Positions 9,985-14,598 of a DNA stretch of 64,000 nucleotides are shown here, in pieces; positions within the stretch are counted from its first letter, which is position 1; each line of letters begins with the position of its first letter. The notes under the pieces were generated by a model. That model saw nothing but the letters and a program-made list of their open reading frames with translations. It made no database searches and was not told where the DNA came from. Position numbers and translations under genes: made by a program. Origin of the DNA: Algoriphagus limi (GTDB lineage Bacteria; Bacteroidota; Bacteroidia; Cytophagales; Cyclobacteriaceae); contig NZ_JANWGH010000003.1 of the NCBI RefSeq assembly GCF_024919275.1, forward strand, positions 719,677-783,676. Direction: 5' to 3'.

Positions 9985-10076
9985 CAATACGATAATTTTT
10001 GACGGACGAAAATAGGAAATTTATTCCCAAGTGATGGGTTTTTAGCACTTTTTAAAATTTGGAAAAATGCGTTCTT

Positions 10077-10090
10077 GTGATAAATATTAC
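10077..10090. promoter_or_regulatory. Putative Crp/Fnr-type operator before thioredoxin
   Basis: GTGATAAATATTAC is an imperfect GTGAT-N4-ATCAC palindrome with one mismatch in the right arm. Its centre is about 44 nt before the start site predicted from the TATATTTG element at 10114-10121, close to the class II activator position. It resembles the sites at 10474 and 12052. Confidence 0.4.
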
Positions 10091-10093
10091 TGA

Positions 10094-10121
10094 TTGAGCT
10101 AATAGACGCCCTCTATATTTG
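10094..10121 (+). promoter_or_regulatory. Promoter of the thioredoxin gene
   Basis: A -33 TTG (10094-10096) and a -7 TATATTTG (10114-10121) are separated by 17 nt, a good fit to the Bacteroidota sigma-A promoter. The predicted start is near 10127. Confidence 0.6.
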
Positions 10122-10145
10122 TTCCATCATTAAAATTTGCAGATT

Positions 10146-10466
10146 ATGAGCGCACAACCAAAAACCTTTCAGGAATTGATCAATGGGGAAACCCTAGTGC
10201 TGGTAGATTTCTTTGCTACTTGGTGTGGCCCTTGCAAAATGATGCAGCCGATTCTGGAAGATACGGCAAGACAAGTGGGGGATCGACTGAAAATAGTTAA
10301 AGTAGATGTCGATCGTAATCCGCTAGCCGCTTCAACTTTCCAAGTGCGGGGAGTGCCAACTTTGGTTCTTTTCCAAAAGGGGAAAATCCTTTGGAGAGAG
10401 TCAGGGGTTGTGCCTGCTCATCACCTTGTGAAAGTCATTGAATCTCATTTGGGGGTAAATGCTTGA
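10146..10466 (+). CDS. Thioredoxin
   Basis: A 106-residue cytoplasmic thioredoxin with the redox motif WCGPCK (Cys27, Cys30) and the cis-proline segment RGVPTLVLF. ATG 10146 is chosen over an upstream in-frame TTG because it gives the standard thioredoxin length. There is no signal peptide. It heads a cluster of sulfur genes (metallo-beta-lactamase/rhodanese, outer-membrane protein, YeeE-type transporters). A likely partner role is reducing persulfides or sulfane sulfur carried by the rhodanese domains; this is inference from context. A Crp/Fnr-like site lies upstream of its promoter. Confidence 0.92.
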   Translation: MSAQPKTFQELINGETLVLVDFFATWCGPCKMMQPILEDTARQVGDRLKIVKVDVDRNPLAASTFQVRGVPTLVLFQKGKILWRESGVVPAHHLVKVIESHLGVNA

Positions 10467-10473
10467 TCCCGAA

Positions 10474-10487
10474 GTGACAAAAGTCAT
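10474..10487. promoter_or_regulatory. Putative Crp/Fnr-type operator before the persulfide dioxygenase-like gene
   Basis: GTGACAAAAGTCAT, a GTGAY-N4-RTCAY palindrome that shares AAAGTCA with the site at 12052. Its centre is about 42 nt upstream of the start predicted from TAAATTTG at 10510, the class II activator spacing. That promoter has no -33 element, as expected if it needs an activator. Confidence 0.45.
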
Positions 10488-10509
10488 TTAAGACCCTAAA
10501 TTCCATGTC

Positions 10510-10517
10510 TAAATTTG
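10510..10517 (+). promoter_or_regulatory. -7 promoter element of the metallo-beta-lactamase/rhodanese gene
   Basis: TAAATTTG matches TAnnTTTG, 36 nt before the ATG at 10554. No -33 TTG is seen about 19 nt upstream. Confidence 0.5.
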
Positions 10518-10553
10518 AAACATTATTTGATAGAAACTAAATAAACATAACCT

Positions 10554-11975
10554 ATGAAGATCGAACAAATCTATACCGGATGTTTGGCTCAGGGAGCCTA
10601 CTACATCGAGTCTGATGGCGAGGCCGCAGTCATTGATCCTTTGCGAGAAGTTCAGCCATATATCGAAAAAGCTGAGCGTAGAGGTGATAAAATCAAATAT
10701 GTATTGGAGACTCACTTCCATGCAGACTTTGTATCCGGACATAAGGATTTGGCTGCTAAAACTGGAGCAAAAATCGTTTATGGTCCTACCGGTATGAAAA
10801 TGGGATTTGACGCCATTATCGCTGAAGATGGTCAAGTTTTCGAATTGGGTAAGGCAAAAATCAAAGTGATTCACACCCCAGGTCATACAATGGAGTCTGT
10901 GTGCTACTTGTTGATCAACGAGGAAGGGAAAGAAGAGGCTTTGTTTACTGGTGACACCCTGTTCATCGGTGACGTAGGTCGACCTGATCTGGCTCAAAAG
11001 GTTGTTAAAGACTTGACTCAGGAGAAACTGGCAGCTCATCTTTACGATTCTCTTCGAAACAAGATCATGCCTCTTCCAGATGATTTGATCGTATATCCAG
11101 CTCACGGAGCAGGTTCTGCTTGTGGTAAAAACATGAGTAAGGAAACTTCCGATACCCTAGGTAATCAGAAGAAAACCAACTATGCGCTTCAGGATATGAC
11201 CAAGGAAGAGTTTATCAAAGAAGTATTGACTGGTTTGACTCCTCCTCCTGCTTATTTCCCTCAAAACGTAATGATGAATATCCAAGGATATGACAGCATT
11301 GATGAGGTATTGGAAAGAGGTATTAGACCTTTGTCTCCAGCAGAATTTGAAGCTGCAGCCAATGAAACTGGAGCGATGATTTTGGATACAAGAGACGCTC
11401 AGGTATTCGCAAAAGGTTTTATCCCTAATTCAATCAACATCGGAATCGACGGAAGCTTTGCAGTATGGGTAGGAGCGATGATTCCAGACCTAAAGCAAGA
11501 GATCTTGATTGTAGCTGAAGAAGGCCGTGAGGAAGAAGTTGTGACTCGTTTGGCACGTGTGGGATATGACTATGCGATTGGGTACATCAAAGGTGGATTT
11601 AAAGCTTGGAAAGAAAGCGGACATGAAGTTGATTCCATCACTTCCATTACTGTTGATGAATTGGCGAAAATTCAAGAAGGAGATCCAGATATTCACATTC
11701 TTGACGTGAGAAAAAATTCTGAATTCTTATCAGAGCATGTAATTGGAGCTGAAAATGCACCGTTGGATTACATCAATGATTCCATGTTGAAAGTGAAAAA
11801 GGATGAGACTTACTACGTGCATTGTGCAGGTGGTTACAGATCCATGATCTTCAACTCTATTTTGAGAGCTAGAGGTTATGATAATCTCATCGACGTTGCT
11901 GGTGGATTCACAGCAATTAAAGAATCGGGCAAATTCAAAGTTTCTGATTACGTATGCCCGACCACCCTACTATAA
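10554..11975 (+). CDS. Metallo-beta-lactamase fold protein with two rhodanese domains (persulfide dioxygenase-like)
   Basis: 473 residues. The N-terminal domain (1 to about 235) has the MBL metal motif HFHAD (His54, His56, Asp58, with His63), then HTPGHT, FTGDTLFIGDVGRPDL and PAHGAGS, the pattern of ETHE1/persulfide dioxygenase-type enzymes that oxidise glutathione persulfide with one iron. Two rhodanese domains follow. The first (about 259-350) has no cysteine in its active-site loop (AEEGREEE) and is probably inactive; the second (about 360-465) has CAGGYR with Cys424. The likely role is detoxification or oxidation of sulfane sulfur and hydrogen sulfide. It follows thioredoxin and precedes transport genes, and a Crp/Fnr-like site lies upstream. 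The fold is secure; the substrate is inferred. Confidence 0.88.
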   Translation: MKIEQIYTGCLAQGAYYIESDGEAAVIDPLREVQPYIEKAERRGDKIKYVLETHFHADFVSGHKDLAAKTGAKIVYGPTGMKMGFDAIIAEDGQVFELGKAKIKVIHTPGHTMESVCYLLINEEGKEEALFTGDTLFIGDVGRPDLAQKVVKDLTQEKLAAHLYDSLRNKIMPLPDDLIVYPAHGAGSACGKNMSKETSDTLGNQKKTNYALQDMTKEEFIKEVLTGLTPPPAYFPQNVMMNIQGYDSIDEVLERGIRPLSPAEFEAAANETGAMILDTRDAQVFAKGFIPNSINIGIDGSFAVWVGAMIPDLKQEILIVAEEGREEEVVTRLARVGYDYAIGYIKGGFKAWKESGHEVDSITSITVDELAKIQEGDPDIHILDVRKNSEFLSEHVIGAENAPLDYINDSMLKVKKDETYYVHCAGGYRSMIFNSILRARGYDNLIDVAGGFTAIKESGKFKVSDYVCPTTLL

Positions 11976-12002
11976 TGAATCCTGTAGAAAAGTTGCTTTA
12001 AG

Positions 12003-12035
12003 AAAATGGCAGGCCGCAAGGCTTGCCATTTTTAG
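12003..12035 (+). terminator. Rho-independent terminator after the MBL/rhodanese gene
   Basis: A G/C-rich stem (GGCAGGCC/GGCTTGCC with one G-T pair) around a GCAA tetraloop, flanked by A and T runs. Confidence 0.8.
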
Positions 12036-12051
12036 TATAAACCCATCAGAT

Positions 12052-12065
12052 GTGATCAAAGTCAC
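12052..12065. promoter_or_regulatory. Putative Crp/Fnr-type operator before the outer-membrane protein gene
   Basis: GTGATCAAAGTCAC lies inside a perfect TGTGA-N6-TCACA palindrome (12051-12066), the classical CRP arrangement, 15 nt before the ATG at 12081. I find no clear TAnnTTTG element at class II spacing before this gene, so here the site may work differently from the two upstream copies, perhaps as a repressor site. Confidence 0.5.
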
Positions 12066-12080
12066 AATTCTAACATAAAA

Positions 12081-13484
12081 ATGAAACGCAATTTTGTTTT
12101 TCTTTTGGTGGTCTTGGGTTTGATGGTTGGAAATGCTCAGAATTTATTTGCGCAGCACGGCCATGAAACTGAAGAAGAGCCTACACAAGAACGTCTCTTT
12201 GGGAAAGTTCTGGAAAGTGGTTCTTTCGAGTTCCATCTTCGTTCTTTCTTTATGGCGACAGTGAATCAGGGAGACCTGATGGATTATAGTACCTGGGGAA
12301 CAGGTGCAGGGCTTGGATATTTCAGTCCTCGGTGGAAAGGATTTGGAGTTGGGTTCAGTGGATTTTTCGTTTTCAGACATTATGAAAATAATATCCAAGA
12401 GAAAGACCCGATAACCGGGGTTAGTAACAGATATGAAATTACTCTTTATGATGTTCATCACCCGGCAAATCATAAGGATATGGATCGATTAGAGGAGCTT
12501 TACCTTTCTTATCAAAAAGAGGATATATCTATTTGGGCAGGAAGGCATCATTTCGAAAGCCCTCTTTTGAATGCTTCTGATAATCGGATGCGTCCAAACC
12601 TTTTCAGTGGAATTTCCATTGATTATACCCCAAGTAATTTCCATTTCAATGGTGCTTGGTTTTCACATGTGATTTCACGTGGATCTTTGGAATGGCTTCC
12701 TGTAGAGGAATCATTTGGGTTTTACAGTACTGGAAGAAATCCTCTTGGGGAAGATGAGAGTTATAGGCGCCATGTTGAATCGAAGGGGATTGGGATTGTA
12801 GGGGTGGAATACTTGAAAGATGATCTTCACATCCAATCCTGGAATTACCTCGCGGAGGGTGTCTTTGGAATTTCTTTTCTTCAGGCTAATGGCACTGCCA
12901 AGTGGGGCGGAAAAGTAGATGGAGTATGGGGAGTTCAAGGGTTTGCTCAGACTGCGCTTGGGGATGGAGGGAATCCCGATCCAGCAAAAGCTTATATTCT
13001 TCCTGGGGAGAAATCCTATGGAATAGGCTTTCGAGCAGGGATCAAATGGCCTCATGCCTTATTGACTGCCAATTATTTGGGAGTTTCTAATCATGGTAGG
13101 TTTTTGTTCCCAAGAGAGTGGGGAAGAGAGCAGTTTTTCGTCAGCCTTCAGCGCGAGCGATTTGAAGGACTAGGTGGAGGAAGCTCATTTATGATCCAAT
13201 ATGACCACACCTTTATCCATGATAAATTAAAGGTCAGTTTTGGAGCTTCTCATACTGATACTGCGGATTTCGAAGATGTCAGATTAAATAAGTACGGTAT
13301 TCCAAACTATTACCACTTTAGTGGGTTGGTGGATTACCGCTTTGATGGGTTCTTTAAAGGATTAGATTTGCAATTGTTGGTAGTTGGGAAGAAACAATAT
13401 GCCAACCAAGTGACTCCGATAGAGTATGTGATCAATCGGGTGAATATGGTCAACACATCAATTATCTTGGATTATAGATTTTAA
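12081..13484 (+). CDS. Outer-membrane beta-barrel/porin-like protein of the sulfur module
   Basis: 467 residues with a clear signal peptide (MKRNFVFLLVVLGLMVG...FAQ), a short acidic His-containing mature N-terminus (HGHETEEE), and then alternating hydrophobic/aromatic strands to a C-terminal Phe (DYRF), typical of an outer-membrane barrel. I do not recognise a specific family; it looks porin-like. It sits 28 nt before two YeeE/YedE-type inner-membrane transporters, so it may be the outer-membrane entry for a sulfur compound such as thiosulfate. That role is inference from context. Confidence 0.7.
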   Translation: MKRNFVFLLVVLGLMVGNAQNLFAQHGHETEEEPTQERLFGKVLESGSFEFHLRSFFMATVNQGDLMDYSTWGTGAGLGYFSPRWKGFGVGFSGFFVFRHYENNIQEKDPITGVSNRYEITLYDVHHPANHKDMDRLEELYLSYQKEDISIWAGRHHFESPLLNASDNRMRPNLFSGISIDYTPSNFHFNGAWFSHVISRGSLEWLPVEESFGFYSTGRNPLGEDESYRRHVESKGIGIVGVEYLKDDLHIQSWNYLAEGVFGISFLQANGTAKWGGKVDGVWGVQGFAQTALGDGGNPDPAKAYILPGEKSYGIGFRAGIKWPHALLTANYLGVSNHGRFLFPREWGREQFFVSLQRERFEGLGGGSSFMIQYDHTFIHDKLKVSFGASHTDTADFEDVRLNKYGIPNYYHFSGLVDYRFDGFFKGLDLQLLVVGKKQYANQVTPIEYVINRVNMVNTSIILDYRF

Positions 13485-13512: not shown

Positions 13513-14094
13513 ATGAATCAATTTATGGAATGGATTACACAACCTTGGCCTTGGTATGTAGCAGGTCCGCTTATCGGATTGACAGTGCCAGCGCTATTGA
13601 TTTTGGGGAATAAAACCTTCGGGATTTCTTCCTCTTTGCGACATGTTTGTGCAATATGTGTGCCTTCAGGTATTCCTTTCTTTACCTATAACTGGAAGAA
13701 GGAAATTTGGAATCTTTTGTTTGTCCTAGGGATTTTAATCGGTGGTTTTGTGGCTACTAATTTCCTGGCAAACCCGGATTCTATCATTGTATCAGAGGCA
13801 ACTCAGGCAGATTTGAAAGCTTTGGGTGTAACAGATTTTGGCAACCTTCTTCCTGCTGATATTTTCTCTTGGGAAAATCTCTTTACTGCAAAAGGCTTGT
13901 TGTTCTTTGTAGTTGGAGGATTTTTGGTTGGTTTCGGTACTCGCTATGCTGGCGGTTGTACTTCTGGCCATGCAATTATGGGAATCAGTTCCCTTCAGTG
14001 GCAGTCCGTATTGGCAACTACATTCTTTATGATTGGTGGTTTCCTAATGACCCACGTTTTCCTTGAGCCATTAATGAAATTAGTAGGATTTTAA
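13513..14094 (+). CDS. YeeE/YedE-type transporter, N-terminal half
   Basis: A 193-residue inner-membrane protein with about four or five membrane segments. The motif [13 protein letters not shown] is the signature of the sulfur-transport family (YeeE/YedE, PF04143), in which conserved cysteines pass thiosulfate through the membrane in TsuA. Full-length members are about 350 residues with two such halves; here the halves are separate genes, and the second begins 12 nt downstream. An additional CAIC lies near residue 43. The two products probably assemble as a heterodimer. Confidence 0.82.
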
Positions 14095-14106: not shown

Positions 14107-14598
14107 ATGAAAGTAGCAGAAAAAGAAAACCCTTCAAAGAACATATCCTACACCACCCTTGACAAAAAGCCATACGAAGAAAAAGGCTTAGAATTACTTA
14201 AATACCTCATTTTGGGGGTGTTGTTTGGGATTGTTTTTGTTAAAGCTGAGATTATTTCCTGGTTTAGAATTCAGGAGATGTTTAGACTACAATCTTTCCA
14301 TATGTATGGTGTGATTGGTTCAGCTGTGGTAGTGGGAATTATTTCCGTTCAAATTATCAAGCGATTCAATATCAAAACCATTCACGGAGAGCCAATCAAT
14401 ATTCCAAATAAGGAATTCCGAAAAGGTCAAATCATTGGTGGATTTATCTTTGGTTTGGGTTGGGCGTTGACTGGAGCTTGTCCAGGACCTTTGTTTGCTC
14501 AGATCGGTAGTGGTTATACTGTAATTTTGGTGACCTTGATTTCTGCCCTTGCAGGAACTTGGGTTTATGGTCGATTTGCAAATAAATTGCCGAATTAA
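14107..14598 (+). CDS. YeeE/YedE-type transporter, C-terminal half (DUF6691-like)
   Basis: 163 residues with about four membrane segments and the second family motif, GWALTGACPGP, containing the conserved Cys. The first 35 residues are charged and cytoplasmic. It is the partner of the preceding half-transporter and ends the sulfur module; a terminator follows within 20 nt. The substrate is inferred to be thiosulfate or another sulfane-sulfur compound from the family and from the adjacent rhodanese gene. Confidence 0.8.
   Translation: MKVAEKENPSKNISYTTLDKKPYEEKGLELLKYLILGVLFGIVFVKAEIISWFRIQEMFRLQSFHMYGVIGSAVVVGIISVQIIKRFNIKTIHGEPINIPNKEFRKGQIIGGFIFGLGWALTGACPGPLFAQIGSGYTVILVTLISALAGTWVYGRFANKLPN

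Follow-up and report, generated by a model that had tools for sequence, protein, structure and literature searches.

Reactive sulfur regulators and the present locus

The reactive-sulfur regulators CstR/CsoR, SqrR/BigR and FisR are described, in the available extracts of PMC9918477 and PMC7315123, as controlling genes for the oxidation of sulfide and persulfide and as possessing conserved cysteines. Extracts of the latter source also describe a Crp-like protein of Acinetobacter baumannii which is persulfidated, is 50% identical to E. coli Crp, and carries its cysteine opposite the ligand pocket (PMC7315123). The system discussed here comes from Algoriphagus limi and was recognized in a stretch of 64 kb (G000:C3:719677-783676), which will be called the window. 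It consists of three Crp/Fnr-type palindromes standing before the genes for a thioredoxin (trxA), a protein with a metallo-beta-lactamase (MBL) fold and two rhodanese domains, and an outer-membrane-type protein (OMP), together with a Crp/Fnr protein encoded elsewhere in the genome, for which we propose the name CrpS. The palindromes are probably the operators of class II promoters which would be activated by CrpS in response to reactive sulfur and control a regulon for sulfur handling. The regulon itself is well supported by comparison of sequences, from which we also infer binding by CrpS, activation in preference to repression, the start sites, and the ligand.

Like SqrR/BigR, CstR/CsoR and FisR, as far as the extracts present them, CrpS has conserved cysteines and a putative role in the control of sulfide and persulfide oxidation genes. 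Unlike SqrR/BigR (ArsR family), CstR (CsoR family) and FisR (sigma-54 type), it has the domains and fold of the Crp/Fnr proteins and resembles a class II activator. The A. baumannii protein is also a Crp/Fnr protein, with a persulfidated cysteine, but is a close relative of CRP, and the extracts of PMC7315123 show no sulfur regulon for it. The best sequence match in the PDB to the CrpS profile is 3dv8, a Crp/Fnr protein of Eubacterium rectale with C-x5-C at the aligned place; it comes from a Firmicute, is titled "putative transcriptional regulator," and does not possess the second cysteine of the CC pair of CrpS.

With the class II promoters of E. coli CRP the present system shares the site TGTGA-N6-TCACA, a centre near -41.5, a recognition helix of the form R-E-x-x-x-R and the CRP fold. 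It differs in the Bacteroidota -7 element, in a C-x5-CC motif which replaces a stretch of the cAMP pocket, in the sulfur regulon, and in a score far below the equivalog cut-off. No description of a Crp/Fnr sulfur regulon in Bacteroidota was found among the papers listed in searches of an open-access library, a scope outside which most subscription papers and all bioRxiv preprints lie. As far as these searches show, the Crp/Fnr family and the promoter type are known, and the pocket cysteines and the regulon are undescribed. If the proposed reading is true, Bacteroidota would gain a sulfur switch open to direct test, its operator being clear, its promoter geometry fixed and its regulon defined, and a cAMP-type pocket would be seen to have been turned to thiol chemistry. 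It would also provide a rule for finding the regulon in Bacteroidota genomes: the site, 26-27 nt, and TTTG.

Promoter architecture

All three palindromes are 16-mers on the plus strand: site 1 (TGTGATAAATATTACT, 10076..10091, centre 10083.5) lies upstream of trxA, site 2 (AGTGACAAAAGTCATT, 10473..10488, centre 10480.5) upstream of the MBL/double-rhodanese gene, and site 3 (TGTGATCAAAGTCACA, 12051..12066) upstream of the OMP open reading frame (ORF). Compared with the pattern GTGAY-N4-RTCAC, sites 1 and 2 show one mismatch each and site 3 shows none, and this agrees with an earlier note on this DNA, which had placed Crp/Fnr-like palindromes before the same three genes and called the third a perfect TGTGA-N6-TCACA. 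Each site is followed on the same strand by a -7 or -7-like element. In the trxA promoter this is TATATTTG (10114..10121), a TAnnTTTG sequence the TTTG of which ends 30 nt past site 1; in the MBL promoter it is TAAATTTG (10510..10517), likewise TAnnTTTG, ending 29 nt past site 2; and the -7-like CAATTTTG (12089..12096), which lies within the annotated OMP ORF, ends 30 nt past site 3.

The sequence TAnnTTTG has been described as the -7 element of Bacteroidota, and no -33 motif was found in Flavobacterium johnsoniae, according to the available extracts of PMC7366714. The distance from the centre of the palindrome to the G of TTTG is 37.5 nt at site 1 and 36.5 nt at site 2. Since transcription starts about 4-6 nt beyond TAnnTTTG, the centres would lie near -42, where the earlier note had put them (42-44 nt upstream of the predicted start). 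Class II promoters of the CRP type have an activator site centred near -41.5 at a fixed spacing from the downstream element, and the predicted starts give just this arrangement. Placed at a fixed distance ahead of the Bacteroidota -7 element, the palindrome thus occupies the position of the -33 box, as it does in a class II CRP promoter. Site 3 shares the class II spacing with respect to CAATTTTG, a point absent from the earlier note. In the proposed mechanism each operator would be found some 41.5-43.5 nt upstream of the expected start, replacing the -33 box ahead of the -7 element.

Bare palindromes prove nothing here, because their counts lie within chance, and they were rejected as evidence: with up to one mismatch the window holds 7 where 4.24 are expected, and 13 of 100 shuffles yield at least as many; in the whole genome there are 3 places with the perfect TGTGA-N6-TCACA and 2 with the reversed pattern. 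When the palindrome is combined with TTTG at the class II distance (GTGAY-N4-RTYAY-N(26,27)-TTTG), the window contains 3 such composites against 0.02 expected, none of 100 shuffles reaches 3, and the three are exactly sites 1, 2 and 3, with none elsewhere in the window. The view that the palindromes are chance occurrences, which the bare counts in window and genome would allow, is one to which we give practically no credence: the composite counts in the window, and those in the genome and genus given below, exceed their controls, and the conservation of the sites already refutes coincidence.

Conservation in the genus

Fifty-eight genomes of the genus were searched, 57 of which had a match to the MBL protein, and the best 30 loci were compared. 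The site before trxA is present in 29/29 loci evaluated (1/30 could not be evaluated), that before the MBL gene in 27/30, and that before OMP in each of the 19 loci where tblastn detected the OMP gene; the gene was not found by tblastn in the other 11. The idea that L013 shows an OMP start beyond the -7 element was given up, the gene not having been found there. TTTG follows at 29-30 nt in 29/29 loci for trxA, 19/27 for MBL (TTT in 26/27) and 18/19 for OMP, counting the loci that have the site. The earlier note would have given up its reading if the sites were not conserved upstream of orthologous clusters, and these figures dispose of that concern. On the other side of the balance are the three MBL loci without a site and the eight of 27 without TTTG.

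The OMP gene presents a conflict between promoter and annotation. CAATTTTG lies inside the ORF annotated from the ATG at 12081, so that the promoter as drawn would start within the ORF, and the first in-frame ATG precedes the end of TTTG by 10-25 nt in 17 of the 19 loci, including our own; both observations speak against a class II promoter at this gene. The ATG follows the end of TTTG in two loci only, at +3 and +5 (L022 and L024), where the reading frame is closed further upstream. The distance from site to TTTG is constant while the position of the ATG shifts, which favours a promoter element, and the class II reading of site 3 requires a translation start later than the annotated one in most of the genus. 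In L106, where the gene for the first YeeE-type protein (YeeE1) is directly downstream, the same element is found 57 nt before its ATG. Either OMP translation begins later than annotated, or the TTTG is a coding coincidence and site 3 works in some other way.

The position of site 3 is also relevant to the question of repression. It stops 15 nt short of the annotated OMP ATG, which would suit a repressor if that ATG is correct, and several of the known sulfane-sulfur regulators are repressors in the available extracts of PMC9918477. CrpS might, by analogy with the SqrR or CstR systems, block the promoter until sulfur releases it. The constant spacing from site to -7 element is, on the other hand, the arrangement of a class II activator, and we regard repression as improbable.

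The regulon

In the complete A. limi genome the composite occurs 10 times, against 1 for the control. Eight of the ten precede sulfur or redox genes: one lies in the intergenic region between crpS and the gene for a sulfide:quinone reductase (SQR), and the others stand before a 111-aa rhodanese, a 1-Cys peroxiredoxin, a TsdA-like dihaem cytochrome, a second MBL/rhodanese paralogue, and trxA, the MBL gene and the OMP ORF of the window. The TsdA-like protein matches PF21342 and PF00034, so combining a cytochrome c domain of the SoxA/TsdA type with another c-type haem domain, and scores 31.6 against the SoxA equivalog cut-off of 110; its activity is a prediction. In the SQR/CrpS region the crpS start codon lies 163 nt beyond TTTG, farther than at the other targets. 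A separate palindrome belongs to the SQR gene, with TACCTTTT at the customary distance (by eye), and a relative (L129) has TTTG there. A variant site with GTAAC half-sites is found between divergent genes for a universal stress protein (USP) and a TauE/SafE protein, the latter assigned by Pfam (L087 7047-7122, G000:C1); with TTTG at the class II distance on either side, this palindrome could drive both genes. Two of the ten composites are within unrelated ORFs. A finding in this genome that does not favour the regulon as drawn is that the perfect site before crpS is without TTTG at the usual spacing.

A stricter composite was counted in 59 genomes of the genus, our own included, and gave 194 occurrences versus 13 for the control, 54 of the 59 genomes having one. 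When one composite place was taken from each of 29 other genomes of the genus, 22 preceded regulon genes (TsdA 8, MBL paralogue 5, CrpS 3, YeeE 2, OMP 2, peroxiredoxin 2) and seven did not.

From a scan of named genomes we used the best 80 of 582 relatives, picked by CrpS similarity, whose titles we take to be those of Bacteroidota. For the distant loci the palindrome pattern was GTRAY-N4-RTYAC and the distance to TTTG was scanned: over 63 distant named loci, TTTG occurs 71 times at offset 26 and 5 times at offset 27, compared with a mean of 1.49 per other offset. The 80 loci contain 102 composites, 77 of them before a query-matched gene (29 TauE, 14 MBL-rhodanese, 8 CrpS, 7 rhodanese, 6 YeeE, plus others) and 25 elsewhere.

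The proposed regulon would thus include trxA, two MBL/rhodanese genes of the persulfide-oxidizing type, the OMP-YeeE-YeeE unit of the thiosulfate/sulfur uptake type, and the putative genes for the TsdA-like dihaem cytochrome, SQR, a TauE/SafE exporter, rhodanese and 1-Cys peroxiredoxin. The earlier note had supposed that one Crp/Fnr regulator controls a regulon of thioredoxin, persulfide oxidation and sulfur import. Conservation, composites at further sulfur and redox genes, and a Crp/Fnr gene with a matching helix beside SQR all point to a single regulator of this kind, whose binding we infer; the wording of the note stands less well, bare palindromes being uninformative at such density and the regulon being much wider than three promoters.

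Among the 25 other composites, nine precede SulP-type sulfate permeases near crpS, in several genera, as judged by eye (L133-L136, L147, L150, L154, L179 and L193). One SulP-type ORF was tested by Pfam and matched Sulfate_transp, and one small ORF among the 25 matched a YgaP-like membrane domain.

CrpS, the probable regulator

The regulator is most likely CrpS, a protein of 218 aa (G000:C1:652882-653535) whose gene is divergent from that of SQR. It has PF00027 and PF13545 above cut-off, and so both the cNMP-binding fold and the Crp-type helix-turn-helix by which the Crp/Fnr superfamily is recognized; a fold search returned CRP/FNR structures as top matches. A CrpS match at E <=1e-20 occurs in 106 of 118 family genomes, paralogues counted in, and the closest named proteins among the matches listed are those of Algoriphagus kandeliae (97%) and A. 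marincola (90%). The adjacent SQR has the type III SQR model as best match (243.5 versus a cut-off of 525), and downstream of crpS are genes for USP, TauE/SafE, a fatty-acid-hydroxylase-type protein and a rhodanese.

Taking TauE, either MBL type, YeeE, SQR and TsdA as core sulfur genes, and flanks of up to 7 kb, 52 of the 80 named loci have a core gene near CrpS versus none of 20 paralogous Crp/Fnr loci, these controls being weaker second matches which differ from the 80 in distance as well as in kind. In 7 of 18 more distant family loci a core gene lies within the compared stretch, and two of the 18 have the whole set, in the order SQR, CrpS, trxA, MBL, OMP, YeeE, YeeE in L071 and TsdA, OMP, YeeE, YeeE, CrpS, MBL, trxA in L083. 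The linkage is far from universal, which weakens the case for CrpS: 28 of the 80 named loci are without a core sulfur gene, 11 of the 18 more distant loci show no listed core gene, and of the 26 family loci parsed only 2 have SQR as the gene divergent from crpS. In addition, the 20 paralogous loci carry 8 class II composites, so that this geometry seems to be shared by related Crp/Fnr paralogues.

Could another Crp/Fnr-type protein bind some or all of the sites? Three genes of this genome exceed the HTH_Crp_2 cut-off, coding for an FNR-like protein, CrpS and a 63-aa fragment. The FNR-like protein is encoded beside a rhodanese gene, further cNMP-fold proteins are encoded in the genome, and in 4 of the 20 paralogue loci a CrpS-like paralogue adjoins a peroxiredoxin gene, which is also a point against CrpS as the regulator. 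The FNR-like protein was disfavoured as a candidate by its helix, TESVIR, which is without the arginine that CRP uses at G5; the third gene is but a fragment; the sequences listed for L230-L232 show no CRP-type helix; and CrpS lies inside the sulfur cluster in some relatives. We judge it unlikely that a protein other than CrpS is responsible.

Recognition helix

The recognition helix of CRP has the form R-E-x-x-x-R, and its E181 reads a base pair of the half-site. In CrpS, R183 and R188 are invariant (128/128 sequences) and correspond to R180 and R185 of CRP. Residue 184 is E in 90 of the 128 and V in 38, and if this residue reads the base pair in the way of E181, a concerted swap of E/V with GTGA/GTAA is expected. 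Among distant loci with a decided half-site vote, those with E favour GTGA by 18 to 1, with 7 ties, and those with V favour GTAA by 25 to 1, with 3 ties. A Fisher test of residue against half-site letter that takes no account of phylogeny (p ~2e-10) was rejected as a probability, since on the tree residue 184 changes only twice, each time with a matching change of site; this tree has 52 decided rows, 76 of the 128 loci having been dropped because their vote was tied or they had no composite. Several results stand against a simple code. The correlation amounts to two independent changes only (sign test p 0.5). There were 6 changes of the site letter, and in 3 of 5 independent pairs the residue stayed as it was; of the 26 E rows, 3 vote A, among them the locus of our own genome. 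Within Algoriphagus both half-site forms are mixed. That residue 184 tracks the half-site letter is, from these alignments, consistent but not conclusive.

Sensor domain and ligand

CrpS of A. limi has cysteines only at positions 78, 84 and 85 (C-x5-CC), and these are conserved in 128/128, 125/128 and 120/128 sequences, respectively. In the structural model (pLDDT 91.2) residues 79-87 form a helix after a strand at 66-72, and 29 of 30 family members carry just these three cysteines, clustered at the one helix. A HMMER alignment places the CRP stretch ELGLFEEGQERSA, the cAMP-phosphate cassette, against ALSLTCCSA of CrpS, and the glutamate which holds the ribose in CRP (E72) falls on Ala79. By this alignment CrpS does not have the cAMP-contacting residues of the cassette. 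It reaches 59.2 bits with the NCBIfam CRP equivalog (cut-off 266) and 25.6 bits with that of FNR (cut-off 228), and the N-terminal cysteine cluster of the FNR type is absent.

Because the cysteines are conserved and lie on the cAMP-phosphate cassette, and because the CRP and FNR equivalog scores are low, we propose cysteine-based sensing of sulfur. CrpS, with C-x5-CC in place of the phosphate-binding stretch, would probably not sense cAMP; reactive (sulfane) sulfur, or a redox consequence of it, would modify the cysteines and lead to DNA binding and activation. The full proposal, that C-x5-CC at the cAMP-phosphate cassette is a sulfane-sulfur sensor through which a class II regulon for the handling of sulfide, persulfide, thiosulfate and sulfite is turned on throughout the phylum Bacteroidota, is put forward tentatively, its chances being in our view somewhat short of even. 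Cysteine at position 78 also occurs in several Crp/Fnr paralogues, which detracts from it, and 8 class III cyclase domains encoded in the genome leave room for cAMP signalling.

Those cyclase domains lend some substance to the idea that the regulator is a cAMP-activated CRP proper, with the genes under carbon or energy control and sulfur incidental. TGTGA-N6-TCACA is the CRP consensus, and CrpS does match the CRP model at 59 bits. This match is to be set against the equivalog cut-off of 266 bits, the replacement of the ELGLFEEGQERSA cassette and of the ribose glutamate, and the 8 of 10 genomic composites that stand before sulfur or redox genes; we consider cAMP control a poor explanation of the locus.

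Somewhat more serious is the suggestion that CrpS senses redox state, O2 or NO, or is an iron-sulfur sensor, its three cysteines holding a metal centre and the sulfur genes responding indirectly. The fold matches of CrpS include cysteine-ligated FNR structures, and peroxiredoxin and thioredoxin are among the predicted targets. Yet nearly all members examined (the 29 of 30 above) have only the three cysteines, close together at one helix, the third of them is lost in 8 of 128 sequences, the FNR-type N-terminal set is absent, and the targets are mainly genes for sulfide, persulfide and thiosulfate. A metal centre therefore seems to us a minority prospect, perhaps one chance in several, and sulfur sensing by CrpS is preferred.

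Genes of the window cluster

The genes of the cluster are all on the plus strand. trxA (10146..10466) codes for a thioredoxin of 106 aa with PF00085 and with TIGR01068 above cut-off. The MBL/double-rhodanese gene (10554..11975) codes for a persulfide dioxygenase/sulfurtransferase-like protein of 473 aa with PF00753 and two stretches of PF00581, which scores 66.5 with the Blh equivalog (bifunctional sulfur transferase/dioxygenase), below the cut-off of 625. It is followed by an intrinsic-terminator-like hairpin (12002..12033; -22.6 kcal/mol, z -5.97), and visual inspection showed similar hairpins in many of the relatives listed. Since this strong hairpin parts MBL from OMP, the OMP-YeeE-YeeE unit probably needs its own promoter.

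The OMP ORF (12081..13484, 467 aa) is an ORF call with an uncertain start codon, and no Pfam or NCBIfam match was obtained for it. Two YeeE/YedE-type half transporters complete the unit, the first of 193 aa (13513..14094, PF04143) and the second, with DUF6691, of 163 aa (14107..14598, PF04143 and PF20398). Both have the Sulf_transp domain (PF04143), and they score 36.7 and 37.1 with the TsuA equivalog, against a cut-off of 400.

Other Crp/Fnr genes

The FNR-like regulator of A. limi has N-terminal cysteines and its gene is located directly before a rhodanese gene (L004, G000:C1:1127527). Five of the 8 composites in the paralogous Crp/Fnr loci precede, by eye, ORFs for YgaP-like small membrane proteins (L219-L222 and L225), hinting at a second, related regulon. 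The 63-aa ORF has a Crp-type helix-turn-helix without a sensor domain (L006 1495-1686, G000:C1:1732409) and is situated ~1.3 kb ahead of the site in the peroxiredoxin promoter. A complete paralogue of CrpS is encoded near a peroxiredoxin gene, 87-89% identical to that of A. limi, in L207, L209, L210 and L211, and for this reason the 63-aa fragment may be the remnant of such a paralogue.

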